Source: a virus. From it: a stretch of DNA of 41,168 bases. The position numbers and the translations under genes were made by a program. The DNA lies in the IMG/VR virus record IMGVR_UViG_3300002460_002971, positions 1 to 41,168 of that record. One strand, written 5' to 3'. The first letter of the stretch is position 1. Each line of letters opens with the position of its first letter. This document shows, piece by piece, positions 21,527 through 37,246 of this stretch. The notes under the pieces are model-generated. The model searched no databases and was not told where the DNA came from. It saw nothing but the letters and a program-made list of their open reading frames with translations.

Positions 21527-21599
21527 GCGCTTGGCCCTTTACCAGATTTAGTGATCGTTGCCCTTTTCTTATCTATCCCTTGCTTTCCCTCATTTTTCA

Positions 21600-21925
21600 G
21601 GGAGGGGATGGAGAGGATAGAATGAAAATGGGAGAGGATAGAGCGGGGAAGATGGAGAGGATAAACGGAAGCAATATCAAAGACTTGAAGGCAAAGCGGA
21701 GAGGATGGAGAGGATGGAGACGATAATTGCAACCCCCACGTAGAAGGCACCAAACCCCCACACCACGAAGTTACGCGCGCACATGCGAGCGGGTCACAAT
21801 TATCCCCTCCATCCTCTCCATCCCCTCCATTTGTCCCGCAACCCATTGATGCCGCATCATTTCCCCCTGACCCCTGCACGGGCTGCCATCCTCTCCCGAA
21901 GGGGTTTATCCCCTCCATCCCCTCA
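21600..21925. other. Candidate replication origin: iteron cluster arranged as a quasi-palindrome
   Basis: The 9-bp unit GATGGAGAG and close variants occur in plus orientation at 21601-21621, 21630-21645, 21651-21666 and 21698-21729, and in reverse orientation at 21797-21828, 21887-21897 and 21905-21925. Several runs end in GATAA. Segments 21698-21729 and 21797-21828 are a 32-bp inverted repeat with 3 mismatches around a 67-base centre. It lies directly downstream of the helicase gene and has no convincing coding content. Iterons next to a P4/D5-type primase-helicase are a known origin layout; origin function here is inferred. Confidence 0.6.
21698..21828. repeat. 32-bp imperfect inverted repeat (GATGGAGAG arms)
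   Basis: Arms 21698-21729 and 21797-21828 match at 29 of 32 positions in inverted orientation, including the ends GATAATTG and CAATTATC. The central 67 bases include GTTACGCGCGCACATGCGAGCG but no gene. Confidence 0.85.
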
Positions 21926-21955
21926 CATTTTGACCAGACTGGGGTGCGGGGCATG

Positions 21956-23842
21956 TCAGAAGTCCTCGCCATAGCGGTTCGGATCGGCGGCTTGGCCAAG
22001 GGTCAGGGCGCGGCCTGCGGCATCTTTCGGGGCCAGACCCCAATCGCGGGCGAATATGTCGGTCAGGCGCAACCCGTCATAGCCGTTGAACCGCCCTGTT
22101 TCCCGCGCCACAAACTGCTTGCCAGTCTTGGGGGATCGCCACCTGCGCGAGTGGTCCTTCATATTGGTCGAGATCGTGCGTTCCTTGAACGGGGTCTCGC
22201 CGCGCTGCATCTGCCAGAACATGAAACACAGCATCAGCTCGCGCGACGATATGCTGTCGGCCACATCGCCCGACACCACACAGGCCTCATCCAGAAACTT
22301 GCCATAGGGGTCGGCATCCTGCCGCAGCGTATCGGTGGCCTGACTGACCTGTGCAGGCGGGGCCAGCCCGCCCTCCAGATAGGATTTAGCTCCCTCAACC
22401 AACCAGTTCAGAATGCCTGGGCCTTCCTCCAACATGCGCTGCACGATCATCGGGTCGCGCTCTTCCTTCGGGATCTGGACATCGAAAGGCACGATCATCA
22501 GACGCCGCCAGATGCCATCATCCATGCCGCGAATATCGGGCGCATGGTTGCCGCCAATGGTCAGCTTGAAGATCGGCGTGGCCTCAAAGAAGTTCTCATT
22601 CAGGGCGCGCACCAGAATAGGCTCGCCGCCCGTCAACTGCTTGATCAGACCCTCTTGCCACTGGACGCCCTTCTCAGGCTCCGAGGCGCGCACCATGCGG
22701 GCAGCAACGATGCTGATCAGATCGGGCGTGGCATCGCCACCAGATCGGCGGTTCTGCCCGGTCAGGGATTCGATCTTGGCCGTGGCGGCATAGCTGCCCA
22801 TCAGCTTGGCCATCAGATCGGTCAGCGCTGATTTGCCATTCGCGCCCATGCCGTAGAAGAAGGCCAAGGCCTGTTCATTGGTCAGCCCCAGCATCGAATA
22901 GCCGAACCAGCGCTGCAGGAATCGCTGCATATCGTGGTCCGGCATGATCCGGTCCAGAAACTTCTGGAAGATCACCGCGTGCGCCGATGGATCATAACCT
23001 GTCGTCATGATCTTGGTCATCCTTAGCGCGCGATCATGCGGGATCAGCGCCATATCAACCTTCGGATAGGTGCCTCTGCGCGGTGTCACCGTAAACCGCA
23101 TCACGCCCGAGGTTGTGTTCACGTCCAATGGATTTGTATCCAGACCCTCGACCCGCACCGCCAAAGGCACTTCGGCCTCTGTCAGCGCGGCCTTGATCTT
23201 TGCCGTGTTGCCGGTGGACCGTGCAAAGGTGCGATGGGCGGTGCGGATCTTCGACAGTGACAGCTTCAGGCTGCCAATCGCCTCGATCTCCACGCCGATG
23301 CGCTTGATGCGCGACTGTGCCACGTCCGACAGCTTGCCCTCATCGTCGCGCTGCAACTCCAGCGTTTCACGTTCCAACTGCAGTTCACGTTCCTCTGCGA
23401 TCTGCTGCATCTTTTCATCGCTCAGGGTCAGATATGGCACCTCTGCCAGCACCAGCTCTGACAGGCGCTGCGCCTTGCGCCGGGTCGCGATCATATCGGG
23501 GTCCACCTGCCAGACCGACCCATCCCAGACATGCCAGCCGACACGCGGCACGCAGATCACGTCCGGCCCGAAATGCCGCACAAATCGCTGACCATTGCCC
23601 AGATCGTTGATCGGCAGCTTTGACGTTTCACGGAAGACATCGGCATCTGACGGTCCAGCAGCAGCCCCTGCCCCGAAATCCGGTTCCATCCCCTGATAGG
23701 GGTCGGCATCGGGGTGATCGGCATCGTCGGGGTGCGGGGCTGCCATCCCATCCGGCAGGTCGATATCTTCCGGTGCTGCCAGAATCCGGCGCACACCCTC
23801 GATGCCCCCGACTCCAACGTCCTGATCTGCATCATTGCTCAT
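21956..23842 (-). CDS. P4/D5-type replicative helicase (SF3, primase C-terminal family), 628 aa
   Basis: The SF3 helicase core is clear: Walker A GMGANGKS (331-338), a Walker B-like region ARMVRASEPEKG (381-392) and motif C KLTIGGNHAPDI (426-437). The D5_N-type domain precedes it (about 285-325). Residues 1-70 are acidic and probably disordered, and a long charged helix at 125-185 may be an oligomerisation coiled coil. The primase part is not in this protein but in the upstream TOPRIM gene, whose stop overlaps its ATG. It would unwind the phage origin. Confidence 0.93.
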   Translation of the reverse strand: MSNDADQDVGVGGIEGVRRILAAPEDIDLPDGMAAPHPDDADHPDADPYQGMEPDFGAGAAAGPSDADVFRETSKLPINDLGNGQRFVRHFGPDVICVPRVGWHVWDGSVWQVDPDMIATRRKAQRLSELVLAEVPYLTLSDEKMQQIAEERELQLERETLELQRDDEGKLSDVAQSRIKRIGVEIEAIGSLKLSLSKIRTAHRTFARSTGNTAKIKAALTEAEVPLAVRVEGLDTNPLDVNTTSGVMRFTVTPRRGTYPKVDMALIPHDRALRMTKIMTTGYDPSAHAVIFQKFLDRIMPDHDMQRFLQRWFGYSMLGLTNEQALAFFYGMGANGKSALTDLMAKLMGSYAATAKIESLTGQNRRSGGDATPDLISIVAARMVRASEPEKGVQWQEGLIKQLTGGEPILVRALNENFFEATPIFKLTIGGNHAPDIRGMDDGIWRRLMIVPFDVQIPKEERDPMIVQRMLEEGPGILNWLVEGAKSYLEGGLAPPAQVSQATDTLRQDADPYGKFLDEACVVSGDVADSISSRELMLCFMFWQMQRGETPFKERTISTNMKDHSRRWRSPKTGKQFVARETGRFNGYDGLRLTDIFARDWGLAPKDAAGRALTLGQAADPNRYGEDF

Positions 23843-24972
23843 TGTTCACCACCCAAAAGCACATCATTCAGATCGACCCCGGACGGGCAGACAGCGATCT
23901 GCCCCCGCAATCCGGGGCGCAGCGCCATCGCGCGGCGCAGACCCGCAACCAGCTTGGCGCGGGTCGATTTCGGTTCGGAATCCCCGTCCATCACGTAGAT
24001 CAGCCGATCAACACCGGCGGGCGGCACAAAGGCGTCACGGTCGCCCAGATCAGGGATGCCCTCATAGCGCAGGCCTTTGCCCATCACGCGTTGACCAGCC
24101 ATGTTGCCCAGATCGGCACCGGCCCAGAACGCTGCATCGGCATGCACCCCGGCAACCAGGGCAGACAGCGTGGTTTCGATCCCCTCGCCCATCACCAGCA
24201 CAGGCCGCACGGCATTGCCGGTCAGCCGGATTGTGCCGCCTTTTTTCGAGCCGAGCATCTTCTTCGACTGGCAAGGCTCGCCCGTAACGGGGTGCAAAAT
24301 CCGCGCCTTGCCCTTGGGCTGATCGAGGTCGATCCAAGTGCGATGCACACCTGTGAACCGACCATCCGGCCCTTGGATTGCGGCCAGCATGGCAGGCCCG
24401 CGATGAATGGACCGCCCTGCCCCGTCGATATCCACGACATAGGCCAGATCGGGGTGATAGCGCAGGCAGACAGGCAGGCGTGGAAACAGCGCGGGCGCAA
24501 TGCCGCGACAGGTCAGATAACCACGAACGGGGGTGCCTTCTGCAGGCTGCCCCTGTTCCCAGACATTGCGCGCCAGCCGGATCGCCTTTTCCCGCTCTTT
24601 GGCAGCAATGGCATCTTTCTGACGCTTGTGTTCCGCCTCTTCGCGGTCCCGCTTGGCCCGCTCTTCTGCGCTGATTTCCACACGCGGGCCGCACAGCCAT
24701 TCCAGCGCCGCGCCAAAATCCATGCCAAGAACAAACATCACCAGGGCGATCTGATCGCCTTTTCCGCCATCGGTGTCGCAGGCGCGGCAAAGGAATTGCT
24801 GCTTGCGGGTGTTGACCGAAAACCGATCCGTGCCACCACAGCGCGGGCAAGGCCCCGTGCGCTCGACACCACCGCGCTTAAGCCCCCGAATATCAAGCCG
24901 CTGGATCAGTTGATCCATGTCGTGGCGGTGCGCCTCTGCAATGCGCGGATCGTTGCCCTGTGCCATGCCCAT
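23839..24972 (-). CDS. DNA primase with zinc finger and TOPRIM domain, 377 aa
   Basis: A CHC2-like zinc-binding domain has Cys42/Cys45 (CPRC) and Cys62/Cys65 (CRAC). A charged linker helix (103-135) leads to the TOPRIM domain with MGEGIETT (Glu263) and VMDGDSEPKS (Asp329, Asp331). It would make primers and work with the SF3 helicase whose gene follows by ATGA overlap. The ATG at 24972 overlaps the upstream stop (TGATG); a second ATG at 24966 is also possible. Confidence 0.92.
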   Translation of the reverse strand: MGMAQGNDPRIAEAHRHDMDQLIQRLDIRGLKRGGVERTGPCPRCGGTDRFSVNTRKQQFLCRACDTDGGKGDQIALVMFVLGMDFGAALEWLCGPRVEISAEERAKRDREEAEHKRQKDAIAAKEREKAIRLARNVWEQGQPAEGTPVRGYLTCRGIAPALFPRLPVCLRYHPDLAYVVDIDGAGRSIHRGPAMLAAIQGPDGRFTGVHRTWIDLDQPKGKARILHPVTGEPCQSKKMLGSKKGGTIRLTGNAVRPVLVMGEGIETTLSALVAGVHADAAFWAGADLGNMAGQRVMGKGLRYEGIPDLGDRDAFVPPAGVDRLIYVMDGDSEPKSTRAKLVAGLRRAMALRPGLRGQIAVCPSGVDLNDVLLGGEQ

Positions 24973-25280
24973 CAGCCCTTTGCGGTCAGACGTTGCAGGG
25001 CGTGGCCCATGTCGCGGCGCAGGATCGGCAGAATCGCGCGGCTGGCATAGGATGTGGCGTAAGACCATTCGACGGGGGTGCGGGCGGAAAAGAATCGACC
25101 CGCCGCATCGGCCAGAAGATCAAAATCCACGTCCTGCCGCAGCCCCGGCAAAGCCTCGCGCAGCACCCCCAAAAGGGCATCAGCCTTGTCCTGAAACTGC
25201 CACTCGAAGGCCAGTTGCGACATGGCGCAGATCGCCACCCGTTCAGCGGGCGACAGCGGGTCAATCCGAGTCTCAACCAT
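24972..25280 (-). CDS. Hypothetical protein in replication operon, 102 aa
   Basis: The family is not recognised. The ATG at 25280 starts MVETRIDPLSPAERVAICAM and overlaps the previous gene by 8 bases; its end overlaps the primase start. The protein is helical and acidic in its middle. It may be a small replication accessory, inferred only from its coupling to the primase. Confidence 0.7.
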   Translation of the reverse strand: MVETRIDPLSPAERVAICAMSQLAFEWQFQDKADALLGVLREALPGLRQDVDFDLLADAAGRFFSARTPVEWSYATSYASRAILPILRRDMGHALQRLTAKG

Positions 25281-25563
25281 GGATATCGCTCCGATTCTGA
25301 TCGACGGGGGCGGGCCGCACGGCGCGCAAAACCGCGCGCTGCAGATCAGCCCCGGCATCCGCCAGCGCCGCCCGATCATGGCGCAAGCCCGCGTGGCGCG
25401 CACAGAACGACAAGGCTGCCACACGCAACGGGTGATCAGCATCCAGACGGTCGCTGATGAACGCCAACTGCGAAACCTGTGCGGCATCCAGCGCACCGAC
25501 CCGCGCCGACAGCGCCACCGCATGCGCCTGCGACATCACAGAAACTGCAAGAAAGCCCATCAT
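25273..25563 (-). CDS. Hypothetical protein in replication operon, 96 aa
   Basis: The start MMGFLAVSVM at 25563 overlaps the stop of the HTH-array gene; the longer open frame further upstream is antisense to that gene. Residues 18-80 are mostly Ala-rich helices (ALDAAQVSQLAFISDRLDAD). It belongs to the same coupled operon. Function unknown. Confidence 0.65.
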   Translation of the reverse strand: MMGFLAVSVMSQAHAVALSARVGALDAAQVSQLAFISDRLDADHPLRVAALSFCARHAGLRHDRAALADAGADLQRAVLRAVRPAPVDQNRSDIHG

Positions 25564-27092
25564 GCGGCCCTCGCTCGTTCCGGCTGCCCGGTCAGCCCCA
25601 TCGCGCGCAAATGCACCCCGACCGAGGCTTTCGACAGGCCGGTGGCCGCGACCATCTGCGGATAGGTCGCCCCTGCCGCCCGCATCTCTGCCAACAGCGC
25701 GCGCGCCCTGTCCTGCTTGGCCTTCACCGCGGGCGGAGTGCCGCCCGTGCGCCCGATCCACGGGTTCACCTTCTTGCGATGCGCCACCAGACCAAGCGCC
25801 GCCAGATGGCGGGCCACGGCATTGGTCGAAAGGCCGGTCGCCGCGCGCATTTCCGACAAGGTGTTTCCGGCGCTGTGCAGATCTGCAATCTGCGCCCGGC
25901 GCGCCTCGACCTGCGCCCGCATGCGTGGCCCCATGCAATTCGTCACCACCGCAGCCCGCCGACCGATCGCCTGCAAATCGCTGCAGATGGTCGGTTCTGT
26001 CACGCCACAGCGCGCGGCCAGTTCGGCCACGGTCAAGGTCTCAACGGGCCATGTAGCCAGCAACTCACGCCGCGCTGTTCGTGCCGCATTCAAGCGGCCA
26101 CGATGCCGCGCCGCTACAGGATTGCCCGCAGGCTTAGGCCACGGCTGCGAGATCGCCACCATGTCATCGCGCAGCGCGCGCACAGACGATCCATGCACCT
26201 TCGCAAAGCCTGCCAGATCGGCCGCACACACTGCGCGATCCAGCCCCGCAATCATCGCAGCCAGTTCAACCCGCCGCGCCGCGACCTTCGCCCGCGCTGC
26301 AGCCCGAACGCCCGTGGCCCTTGACTGCCGCCCCGCAACAGCCCGAGGGGCTTTGACACGGGCAACCGTCTGTTTACGAACATCGGCGGCGGATCGGCCA
26401 ATAGCCCGCAGATCCAGCCACACCGTGACACGCGACACACCGAACCGCGCCCCGATCTGGGCGACGGTCATTTCCTCAACCTTCAGCGCGGCCAGCTCGG
26501 ACCGCCGCAGCGCCTGTGCAGCCTGCCGCGACAGGGGTGCGGGCTTTTGCGGCTTCACAACTTCGGTGACCACAGGGCGCAGGACAATGCCCAACCGGGT
26601 GCGCGCGATCATCCGCAAATAGGCCAGCGAAAGACCGACTGTCGCTGCGATGGTCAATTCATTGGCGCCAGATTCGTGCATCGCCACGATCCGCGCCGCG
26701 CGCAGGACCGCATCGGTATTGGCAACGGGTGACGGGTTGGCCAGCAGCTTCAAGGCCCGCCGTTCGCTCTGCACATCCAGCCGATCAATCCCCAGAACCT
26801 CGGCAATCGCCCGGTCATGCAGCCCTTCGGCATGCAGCCGCGCCACGTCCTGCCTGCGCTGCGATACGACAGGCGCGAGCTTGCGCGCCCGAACCTGCGC
26901 CGCCTGATCCCGCTTTTTCTGCTCCTTCCAGTCAGGATAGACCAACTGGCTGCCATCCCACACCGGCAGCGCCCGCCCGCTCACCCCGGTATCGACGCGC
27001 TGCACGGCCTCCGGCTGCACGGCCACGCCATAGCGCGCCGCCACCTCTGCCGCGACCCGCGCCGCGTAATCCTGCTGGGACTGCGCGCTCAT
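25560..27092 (-). CDS. Tandem helix-turn-helix array protein, 510 aa
   Basis: I see seven HTH-like modules at about residues 80-117, 131-168, 197-233, 273-313, 341-378, 398-435 and 462-501. Each has a helix, then a recognisable core such as MTVAQIGARFGVSRVTVWLD, LTVAELAARCGVTEPTICSD or NTLSEMRAATGLSTNAVARH. Basic linkers rich in Arg/Ala join them. No catalytic domain is visible. It is a probable multi-site DNA-binding protein at the head of the replication genes and could bind the nearby 9-bp iterons; that link is inference. Translation is coupled to the DUF1937 gene upstream. Confidence 0.8.
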   Translation of the reverse strand: MSAQSQQDYAARVAAEVAARYGVAVQPEAVQRVDTGVSGRALPVWDGSQLVYPDWKEQKKRDQAAQVRARKLAPVVSQRRQDVARLHAEGLHDRAIAEVLGIDRLDVQSERRALKLLANPSPVANTDAVLRAARIVAMHESGANELTIAATVGLSLAYLRMIARTRLGIVLRPVVTEVVKPQKPAPLSRQAAQALRRSELAALKVEEMTVAQIGARFGVSRVTVWLDLRAIGRSAADVRKQTVARVKAPRAVAGRQSRATGVRAAARAKVAARRVELAAMIAGLDRAVCAADLAGFAKVHGSSVRALRDDMVAISQPWPKPAGNPVAARHRGRLNAARTARRELLATWPVETLTVAELAARCGVTEPTICSDLQAIGRRAAVVTNCMGPRMRAQVEARRAQIADLHSAGNTLSEMRAATGLSTNAVARHLAALGLVAHRKKVNPWIGRTGGTPPAVKAKQDRARALLAEMRAAGATYPQMVAATGLSKASVGVHLRAMGLTGQPERARAA

Positions 27093-35122: not shown

Positions 35123-35419
35123 ATGACCAAGCCAAACCAGAATGACCTGATTGTTTTCACCGATGAAGACGGCGCGCCTTGGGCTGCGTTTGTCTGGGGT
35201 GAGGCCGATCCCACCGCCGTTGCAGACCTGATCGATCTGGACGTGATCGCGGAAGAAACCGGCTATGAACCCGAAGACATCATAGCCGAATGCTCTTGGC
35301 CCCCGCGCGTCCAGACCTATCACCTGCGGCTCAACGAAGACGAAACATACAGCTTCTGCGATGCATCTGACCCAGAGGCGCAGATCATCACCGGCCACCG
35401 CTTTTATCCGCAGGGCTGA
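35123..35419 (+). CDS. Hypothetical acidic protein, 98 aa
   Basis: AGGAGG lies 6 bases before the ATG. The protein is very acidic (PTAVADLIDLDVIAEETGYE) and probably soluble. Family unknown. Confidence 0.7.
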   Translation: MTKPNQNDLIVFTDEDGAPWAAFVWGEADPTAVADLIDLDVIAEETGYEPEDIIAECSWPPRVQTYHLRLNEDETYSFCDASDPEAQIITGHRFYPQG

Positions 35420-35423
35420 TGAC

Positions 35424-35693
35424 ATGGCAGCCCACATCGAAAGCCCCCCACACGTAGCGCGGGCGCGCATTGCCGCAATCCGTCTGGCCGCTCGCAATAT
35501 GTGCATCGAAACCGGAGGTGATCCGGCTGAGTGCGCGTTTGAACTGGTTGCAGCCGCAATCCTGATCCTTCACGAAGCGCGCCCCATGAAAAACACATCG
35601 CAGATGATCGCCATGGTCGCGCCAGACGCGGAGGCAGTCGTCGAGGAATGGTTTCCCGAAGAACTCAAGAAATTCAGGTGCAAGCATGGCTGA
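35424..35693 (+). CDS. Hypothetical protein, 89 aa
   Basis: The ATG at 35424 (MAAHIESPPHVARARIAAIR) is only 4 bases past the previous stop. The protein is mostly helical with EFWF-like acidic residues near its end (VVEEWFPEELKKF). Family unknown. Confidence 0.65.
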   Translation: MAAHIESPPHVARARIAAIRLAARNMCIETGGDPAECAFELVAAAILILHEARPMKNTSQMIAMVAPDAEAVVEEWFPEELKKFRCKHG

Positions 35694-36120
35694 GAACAGC
35701 AAAATCGAATGGACCGATGCAACAAAGTGGTGTTCTCGCTGCAAAACGATTCACCCACTATCAGATTTTGGGCGCGACAAAACGCGAGGTGATGGCATTG
35801 CGGCGTGCTGCTTGGCGTCGCGCCGTGTCATTGATCGCAAGCCGCAAATTGGCAGTCTTGGGCGCAGAAAGTGGCTTACGCCAGCGCGCGATGGCGACAA
35901 AAAGCAAGCGCGCCGCCGCGTGAATTATCTGGTGGAGCAAGGCCGTATACCGCGCCCAGATGATCTTCCGTGCCTTGATTGTGGCGATGAGGTTTTCGTG
36001 CATCGGCACCCGCATGAATACGATCACCACCTTGGATACAGCGCGGCAAACCAACTCTCAGTTGAGGCGGTTTGCCGGAAATGCCACCGCAACAGGGATG
36101 ATGCACGTCATGGCGCGTAA
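35686..36120 (+). CDS. HNH-like zinc protein with a borrowed Gp37/Gp68 N-terminus, 144 aa
   Basis: The first residues MAENSKIEWTDAT match the conserved start of Gp37/Gp68 proteins such as the next gene (MARNSKIEWCDDTW). A Cys motif CSRCKTIHPLSDFGRD follows, and the C-terminal half is an HNH-like core: CLDCGDEVFVHRHPHEYDHH, then AVCRKCHRNRD. It is therefore a probable HNH endonuclease fused to a few residues of a neighbour. It overlaps both neighbours by about 8-11 bases. Confidence 0.75.
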   Translation: MAENSKIEWTDATKWCSRCKTIHPLSDFGRDKTRGDGIAACCLASRRVIDRKPQIGSLGRRKWLTPARDGDKKQARRRVNYLVEQGRIPRPDDLPCLDCGDEVFVHRHPHEYDHHLGYSAANQLSVEAVCRKCHRNRDDARHGA

Positions 36121-37246
36121 TTCAAAGATCGAATGGTGCGACGACACTTGGAACATCATCACCGGCTGCACGCTGGTCGATGAAGGCTGCCGCCATTGCT
36201 ACGCCGCCCACCTCATCACCTCATGGCCCGCCATCGGCAACCACCCCAGCCGCAAGGGTCTGGCCCGCAAGAACGCGGCAGGCGAAAGCAAGTTCACGGG
36301 CGAGGTGCGGTTCAATGAGGATTGGCTCGACCAGCCCCTGCGCTGGAAAAAGCCGCGCAAGATCTTCGTCTGCGCCCACGGCGATCTGTTCCACGAAACC
36401 GTGCCGGATGAATGGATCGACCACGTGTTCGCCGTCATGGCACTGGCCCCGCAGCACACGTTTCAGGTGCTGACCAAACGGCCAGAGAGGGCGCGGGCGT
36501 ATCTGAACGGCGACGGGCTGGAAATGGGCGATGCGTCCCGAGGTGCAAACATCGCCTGCATTGCCCAAGATGATTTTCACCAACACCTGCACGGATCGAC
36601 CTTTTTCACACCAATAGGCAATGAAGAAGAACCGCAAGCCGTTCTCACCACATGGCCCCTGCCCAACATCTGTCTTGGCACCTCGATCAGCGATCAGGCC
36701 AGCGCCGATCAGCGCATCCCGCACCTGCTCGCAGCCCCCGCCGCCGTGCGCTTCATCAGCGCAGAGCCGTTGCTGGGCGAGGTCGATTTGAAAGCTACCC
36801 GATATGGGCATATGACTGCCATATCCAGATTGGACTGGGTGATCGTCGGCGGCGAGAGCGGCCCCCACGCCCGCCCGATGCACCCTGAATGGGCGCGGTC
36901 CCTGCGCGATCAATGCGCGGCGGCTGGCGTGCCGTTCCTGTTCAAACAGTGGGGCGAGTGGTTGCCCCTCAACCAAACCGCGCTGGGGGCCGACGACGCC
37001 TATTACCACCCCGCGCCCGAGGAAGACCCAGAGTTATCCAGTCGCTGCAAATATGACAGTTTGTGCATTGCGCCGGATGGCACGTCCTATTCGACAGGGA
37101 CTGCACACCAATACCACCGCATTGCCGAGGGGGCATTTGCAGGCGCGGGCCATATGCAATGCTTCAAGATCGGCAAGTCCCGCGCTGGTCGCTTGCTGGA
37201 TGGCATCGAACACAACGGCTTCCCCCAGATCGGGGGTGCAGCATGA
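36110..37246 (+). CDS. Phage Gp37/Gp68 family protein (DUF5131), 378 aa
   Basis: The typical start MARNSKIEWCDDTWNIITGC leads into a Cys cluster (CTLVDEGCRHCYAAHL) resembling radical-SAM-like ligands. Later family sections are LTKRPERARAYLNGDGLEMG, VRFISAEPLLGEVDL and DWVIVGGESGPHARPMHPEW with LFKQWGEW. The biochemical role of the family is not established. The start at 36110 overlaps the end of the HNH gene by 11 bases. Confidence 0.9.
   Translation: MARNSKIEWCDDTWNIITGCTLVDEGCRHCYAAHLITSWPAIGNHPSRKGLARKNAAGESKFTGEVRFNEDWLDQPLRWKKPRKIFVCAHGDLFHETVPDEWIDHVFAVMALAPQHTFQVLTKRPERARAYLNGDGLEMGDASRGANIACIAQDDFHQHLHGSTFFTPIGNEEEPQAVLTTWPLPNICLGTSISDQASADQRIPHLLAAPAAVRFISAEPLLGEVDLKATRYGHMTAISRLDWVIVGGESGPHARPMHPEWARSLRDQCAAAGVPFLFKQWGEWLPLNQTALGADDAYYHPAPEEDPELSSRCKYDSLCIAPDGTSYSTGTAHQYHRIAEGAFAGAGHMQCFKIGKSRAGRLLDGIEHNGFPQIGGAA

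Follow-up and report, generated by a model that had tools for sequence, protein, structure and literature searches.

A mirrored array of 9-bp iterons downstream of an SF3/D5 helicase gene as a predicted replication origin in Rhodobacterales phages and phage-plasmids

Introduction

A non-coding interval in a 41,168-nucleotide stretch of viral DNA (hereafter the window) carries about a dozen copies of a 9-bp unit, arranged in two sets that face each other. What is this array for, and which protein reads it? A sequence-only reading of the window had taken it for a phage replication origin served by the adjacent SF3 helicase. Here we compare the array and its neighbouring genes across related phages and phage-plasmids. 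In a literature search that mostly covered sources other than subscription journals, no paper on such an origin type in Rhodobacterales phages was found.

Results and discussion

Genomic setting of the repeat array

The window belongs to a prophage carried on a contig (G000:C47) from a genome of the Rhodobacteraceae. The genes around the array lie on the minus strand and follow one another in the order HTH-array protein, p183, primase, SF3/D5 helicase, non-coding interval, p234, HNH, TerS, TerL and portal. The features that bear on the function of the interval are the following.

21527–21955, no strand: non-coding interval with the predicted origin, between the helicase stop (21956) and the next gene start (21526), from the ORF map; relatives have an equivalent gap of ~400–500 nt at the same place
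21956–23842, minus strand: SF3/D5-type helicase, 628 aa, proposed iteron-binding initiator (Pfam D5_N, 1e-16; DUF5906, 1.5e-6; PHROG DNA primase, 8.8e-116)
22034–22309, minus strand: helicase residues 512–603, C-terminal winged helix, proposed iteron reader (AF2 secondary structure; iteron covariation)
23839–25068, minus strand: zinc-ribbon/TOPRIM-type primase, 409 aa, proposed priming partner (DUF7146, 1.2e-26; weak Zn_ribbon_DnaG; PHROG DNA primase, 2.9e-77)
25560–27092, minus strand: HTH-array protein, 510 aa, with about seven HTH motifs in a row (domain search)

The AF2 model of the helicase has a pLDDT of 89.7 and, taken as a whole, resembles hexameric D5-type helicases. For the winged helix, the top PDB hit was the RFX DNA-binding domain, with a probability of 0.99 and a weak E-value of 0.018.

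Composition of the array in the window

A search of the 41-kb window for exact copies of the motif GGAGRGGAT gave 11 matches (six on the plus strand and five on the minus strand), every one of them at 21601–21916, whereas dinucleotide shuffles of the window gave a mean of 0.69 and a maximum of 4. The 18-bp double unit, with up to three mismatches allowed, matched seven times in the window, always inside the repeat segment (0.22 expected). When weaker copies are counted, the segment contains 12–13 units, in keeping with the dozen or so copies noted in the sequence-only reading, and the four plus-strand and three minus-strand clusters that it placed around 21763 were also recovered, this position being the midpoint between the two inner triples. 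The 32-bp inverted repeat it described is present as an inner dyad but is larger, with arms of 65 nt (21676–21740 and 21786–21850) that are 75% complementary. The window unit is TGGAGRGGA, and the array comprises the full set of units plus one or two extras in the distal arm. The elements are listed below.

21601–21618, plus strand: outer iteron pair of the distal half, mirroring 21908–21925 (motif scan, layout)
21631–21639, plus strand: single iteron of the distal half, on the outer side of the inner triple at a distance of 67 bp, mirroring 21888–21896 (motif scan, layout)
21654–21662, plus strand: extra single iteron of the distal half, preceded by a weak copy at 21645–21653; its position is not conserved family-wide
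21698–21724, plus strand: inner triple iteron array of the distal half (motif scan, dyad search)
21725–21801, no strand: core between the inner triples, with AATTG/CAATT edges and an alternating CpG run at 21774–21787
21802–21828, minus strand: inner triple iteron array of the helicase-proximal half, three 9-bp units head to tail
21861–21874, minus strand: GGGGTCAGGGGGAA box between the single iteron and the inner triple, conserved in relatives
21888–21896, minus strand: single iteron of the helicase-proximal half, on the outer side of the inner triple at a distance of 68 bp
21908–21925, minus strand: outer iteron pair of the helicase-proximal half, GGAGGGGAT plus the weaker TGAGGGGAT
21941–21951, plus strand: GGGGTGCGGGG box just past the helicase stop, recurring in relatives whatever the iteron sequence

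A switch in GC skew, which had been suggested as a check on the origin, was not seen at the segment; the skew is weakly negative over almost the whole window.

Conserved layout and changing unit in relatives

Relatives of the helicase were gathered from genome and viral collections, giving 144 non-redundant loci for a comparison of the region past the helicase stop. Tandem repeats of 9 bases stood out in these regions, with 1071 windows at lag 9 compared to at most 97 at any other lag, and in 124 of 145 loci the inverted pairs of triple 9-mers scored higher than 99% of shuffles. At a stricter cut, 89 of 111 non-redundant loci passed (helicase at least 40% identical to that of the window), and most of those that failed have a weaker copy or a displaced one, in some cases with a gene inserted in front of it. 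A rescan with a lower score bar covered the loci that had given no match at first, and its matches were trusted only when they had the canonical position or a high score. The sequence-only reading had named relatives with the same helicase and no repeats as evidence that would refute an origin; nearly all of the relatives compared carry the repeats.

Each half of the array consists of a pair, a single unit and an inner triple (2-1-3), mirrored around a core of ~77 bp. Units occur in both arms at positions −97, −88, −67, 0, 9 and 18, far more often than the background of about 0.6 per position, the most common number of units is six in either arm, and the gap between the inner triples is 72–90 bp in most loci. 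The outer units vary more than the inner triples: only 18 of 78 loci have a full 2-1 set that could be made out in both arms.

The family consensus of the unit is NRGGSMNGA (96 loci), in which positions 3, 4 and 8 are nearly fixed and the others are variable. Other iteron units among the relatives include TAGGGAAGG, ACGGCCCGA, AGGGCCTGA, CAGGGACGA and CGGGGCNCN, and the origin iteron of locus L050 is GGGAAGGTA. The layout is kept across relatives while the unit changes in step with the putative DNA-reading end of the helicase. Core motifs are common to loci of different terminase types. In many relatives, the core also contains a dyad (TAACGCATG / CATGCGTTA) and GGGGTNNGGGGG boxes that are invariant when the iteron changes.

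Covariation of the iteron with the helicase C-terminus

Helicase C-termini fall into matching groups when sorted by iteron. The mean iteron distance between nearest neighbours was 0.18 when the neighbours were chosen by the helicase C-terminus, 0.31 by p234, 0.35 by TerL and 0.39 by primase, compared to about 0.40 for random pairs. On common subsets, nearest neighbours by TerS and by HNH had iterons much less similar than those of nearest neighbours by the helicase C-terminus. The NTPase domain was only somewhat worse than the C-terminus (0.22 versus 0.18), as expected for parts of one protein. In an all-pairs Mantel comparison with iteron distance, the values were 0.20 for the C-terminus, 0.18 for TerS, 0.17 for p234 and 0.00 for the NTPase domain; these are weak, probably because iteron distances saturate, and nearest-neighbour and close-pair tests were used instead.

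Among 1728 close pairs, corrected for NTPase distance, the stretch 531–592 contains 15 of the 20 residues that covary best with the iteron (2.6 expected), a result that we take as strong pointing evidence and not as a probability since locus pairs are non-independent. The top residues are G583, K553, M537, D589, P551, E549 and N586, and in the AF2 model the covarying residues are mostly found in the last helix (554–567) and the wing (578–589) of the winged helix. Based on this strong covariation, we propose that the iterons are recognised by the C-terminal winged helix of the adjacent helicase. The suggestion that the origin is served by this helicase has thus been strengthened, as the repeats follow the helicase across more than 80 phages and covary with its C-terminal winged helix, but do not covary with packaging genes, the primase or the downstream gene.

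Two prophages on two contigs of one Rhodovulum kholense genome (L083 and L087) have the same winged-helix sequence in the aligned stretch and carry different iterons (AGGGCCTGA and ACGGCCTGA) and different terminase types. The match between helicase and iteron is therefore not strictly one to one, and the two prophages represent a natural test of origin cross-talk.

Alternative functions and alternative readers

The repeats might instead be a cos or pac packaging site bound by the small terminase. In the P1 pac site, similar-looking repeats lie on both sides of the cut, and the interval in the window is upstream of HNH, TerS and TerL, which follow within 3.5 kb. Moreover, the record of the Rhodobacter phage RcapNL (end of L224 and start of L225) has a 26-nt 3' cohesive overhang, an unusual length, and this places the genome ends inside the equivalent interval, just outside the right inner triple. 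RcapNL is listed as circularly permuted in a later table (PMC8601537), and the records of "Microcystis" and related phages start at genes and are thus uninformative on DNA ends. However, the iteron is independent of the terminase type, and one and the same unit is found beside unrelated terminases. Three terminase types were found with the same iteron classes: L090 (HK97-type TerL) and L172 (gpA type) both have CAGGGACGA, L200/L207 and L055/L095 likewise share iterons across terminase types, and nearest neighbours with different terminase types still have similar iterons (0.18 versus 0.40 for random pairs). Locus L006 keeps the packaging genes (TerL 94%, TerS 89% and HNH 87% identical) with a different upstream gene and no SF3 helicase, and no repeats were found in the 629 nt present upstream of its p234. 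With the iteron covarying with helicase residues as well, we consider a packaging site very unlikely, and it was rejected as the function of the repeats because the same iterons occur with different terminase types and L006, which has the same packaging genes, lacks them. A cos site may still share the interval with the origin, and it may lie beside the iterons without using them.

An origin read by another protein was also considered, the candidates being the HTH-array protein, which has its HTH motifs and a place in the same operon to recommend it, and the downstream p234, which starts beside the repeats and whose distances correlate weakly with iteron distances (rho 0.17). However, relatives of the HTH-array protein, named as a possible binder in the sequence-only reading, were found in only 6 of the 96 array-bearing loci, and an unrelated p219-type gene takes the place of p234 in many loci whose iteron class is unchanged, among them L045 and L062, which have the class of the window. 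Both proteins were rejected as readers on distribution and gene swaps. On a shared subset, nearest neighbours also had closer iterons when chosen by the helicase C-terminus (0.19) than by p234 (0.31), and we regard a different reader as extremely improbable. The interval immediately precedes the late genes, on their strand, a position that would also suit an operator or late-promoter region with regulator-bound repeats controlling the packaging and head genes. That explanation is hardly credible given the mirrored 2-1-3 arrays and the conserved core, and given that the link is to the helicase and not to any regulator or downstream gene.

Comparison with known replication origins

The sequence-only reading had likened the segment to P4. 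The closest published layout is the origin of staphylococcal SaPI elements rather than that of P4. P4 has GGTGAACA-type iterons and needs a second site, crr; neither feature was found, as the unit here is TGGAGRGGA and a motif scan detected no second array of it elsewhere in the window. P4 alpha resembles the present system in its origin repeats bound by a winged helix and its TOPRIM-type primase (PMC4234260), and differs in that primase and helicase are fused in P4 and are separate genes here (23839–25068 and 21956–23842). The crenarchaeal plasmid pRN1 likewise depends on an origin sequence that lies immediately past its helicase gene, and it has a C-terminal winged helix (PMC4234260). It differs in having a large stem-loop without iterons.

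SaPI-type origins have an AT-rich region between the repeat sets. Such a core was not found here: AT content averages 46% in the cores of the family versus 37% in the helicase genes, and only the core edges are AT-rich. Two other SaPI features are present, namely short iterons in two sets of opposite orientation and an origin within about 500 nt of the helicase stop in the window and most relatives, with a few displaced. SaPI Rep and Cch2 use the C-terminal domain to bind repeats that lie immediately past the end of the gene encoding them (PMC7581432), and the SaPI repeats, which face opposite ways, are proposed to load two head-to-head hexamers (PMC9894130). As in SaPI, the predicted origin follows its helicase gene directly and the short iterons are oppositely oriented; recognition by a C-terminal domain (here proposed from covariation) and two proposed hexamers are further points of likeness (PMC7581432, PMC9894130). 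In contrast to SaPI, the units here are 9 bp long in a 2-1-3/3-1-2 layout, the TOPRIM-type primase is separate, the core is not clearly AT-rich, and the element is a full temperate phage and not a satellite. SCCmec Cch2 is also a D5_N helicase, and its C-terminal domain on its own binds direct repeats located past the end of the gene; however, it has three 5-nt iterons, and no mirrored arrays of six are described in the available part of the report (PMC7581432).

Phage-plasmids and other carriers

The helicase and repeat arrangement is shared by phage-plasmids. Among them is Tritonibacter A3R06, which encodes a P4-type helicase and has been described as an extrachromosomal phage-plasmid with a backbone found in combination with varying structural genes (PMC10090143). 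Partition-type and other genes are also present on A3R06, and phage-plasmids carry other maintenance genes, so that their sharing of the arrangement is no proof that this origin type is the one used.

The 41-kb phage-plasmid pP88_h of Phaeobacter inhibens (L233), which has this origin type, encodes an acyl-homoserine-lactone synthase and an autoinducer-binding gene at 35384–36617, and this pair adjoins a repressor-like gene. Phages named for cyanobacterial hosts (PP395635, PP395636, ON968455, OP858991 and PP438413) have this Rhodobacterales-type helicase (47–51% identity); they may represent prophages of other bacteria present in the cultures.

Proposed model and implications

Taken from comparative sequence evidence, the segment is very probably the replication origin of an HK97-type temperate phage, read by the adjacent SF3/D5 helicase via its C-terminal winged helix. 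Counting against this model are the lack of a GC-skew switch, a core that is not clearly AT-rich, the differing iterons of L083 and L087, the other maintenance genes of the phage-plasmids, and the RcapNL ends in the interval. The SF3/D5 helicase would recognise the 9-bp iterons with its winged helix, and each mirrored set of about six iterons would assemble one helicase hexamer. The pair of opposed hexamers would open the ~77-bp core, and the adjacent TOPRIM-type primase would then prime synthesis. With six units per half, there may be one unit per helicase subunit.

A more far-reaching picture is possible, and we would put its chances somewhat below even. Here, two mirrored six-iteron sets would provide one iteron per subunit of two opposed hexamers, with a 9-bp step that corresponds to a helix turn of about −51 degrees, close to the 60 degrees between ring subunits; a decodable residue-to-base code would have diversified in the RFX-like winged helix, and many mutually blind replication groups would exist, with the origin module swapped freely between packaging backbones.

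The predicted origin provides a clear origin-finding rule for the phages and phage-plasmids of Rhodobacterales in which this system occurs, a large group: the SF3 helicase is located and the region just downstream is searched. Some 80 matched initiator–origin pairs with differing specificities would be enough to decode origin choice by a helicase winged helix. Should each subunit be served by one iteron, the self-loading of two opposed hexamers would become directly testable in a simple bacterial system.
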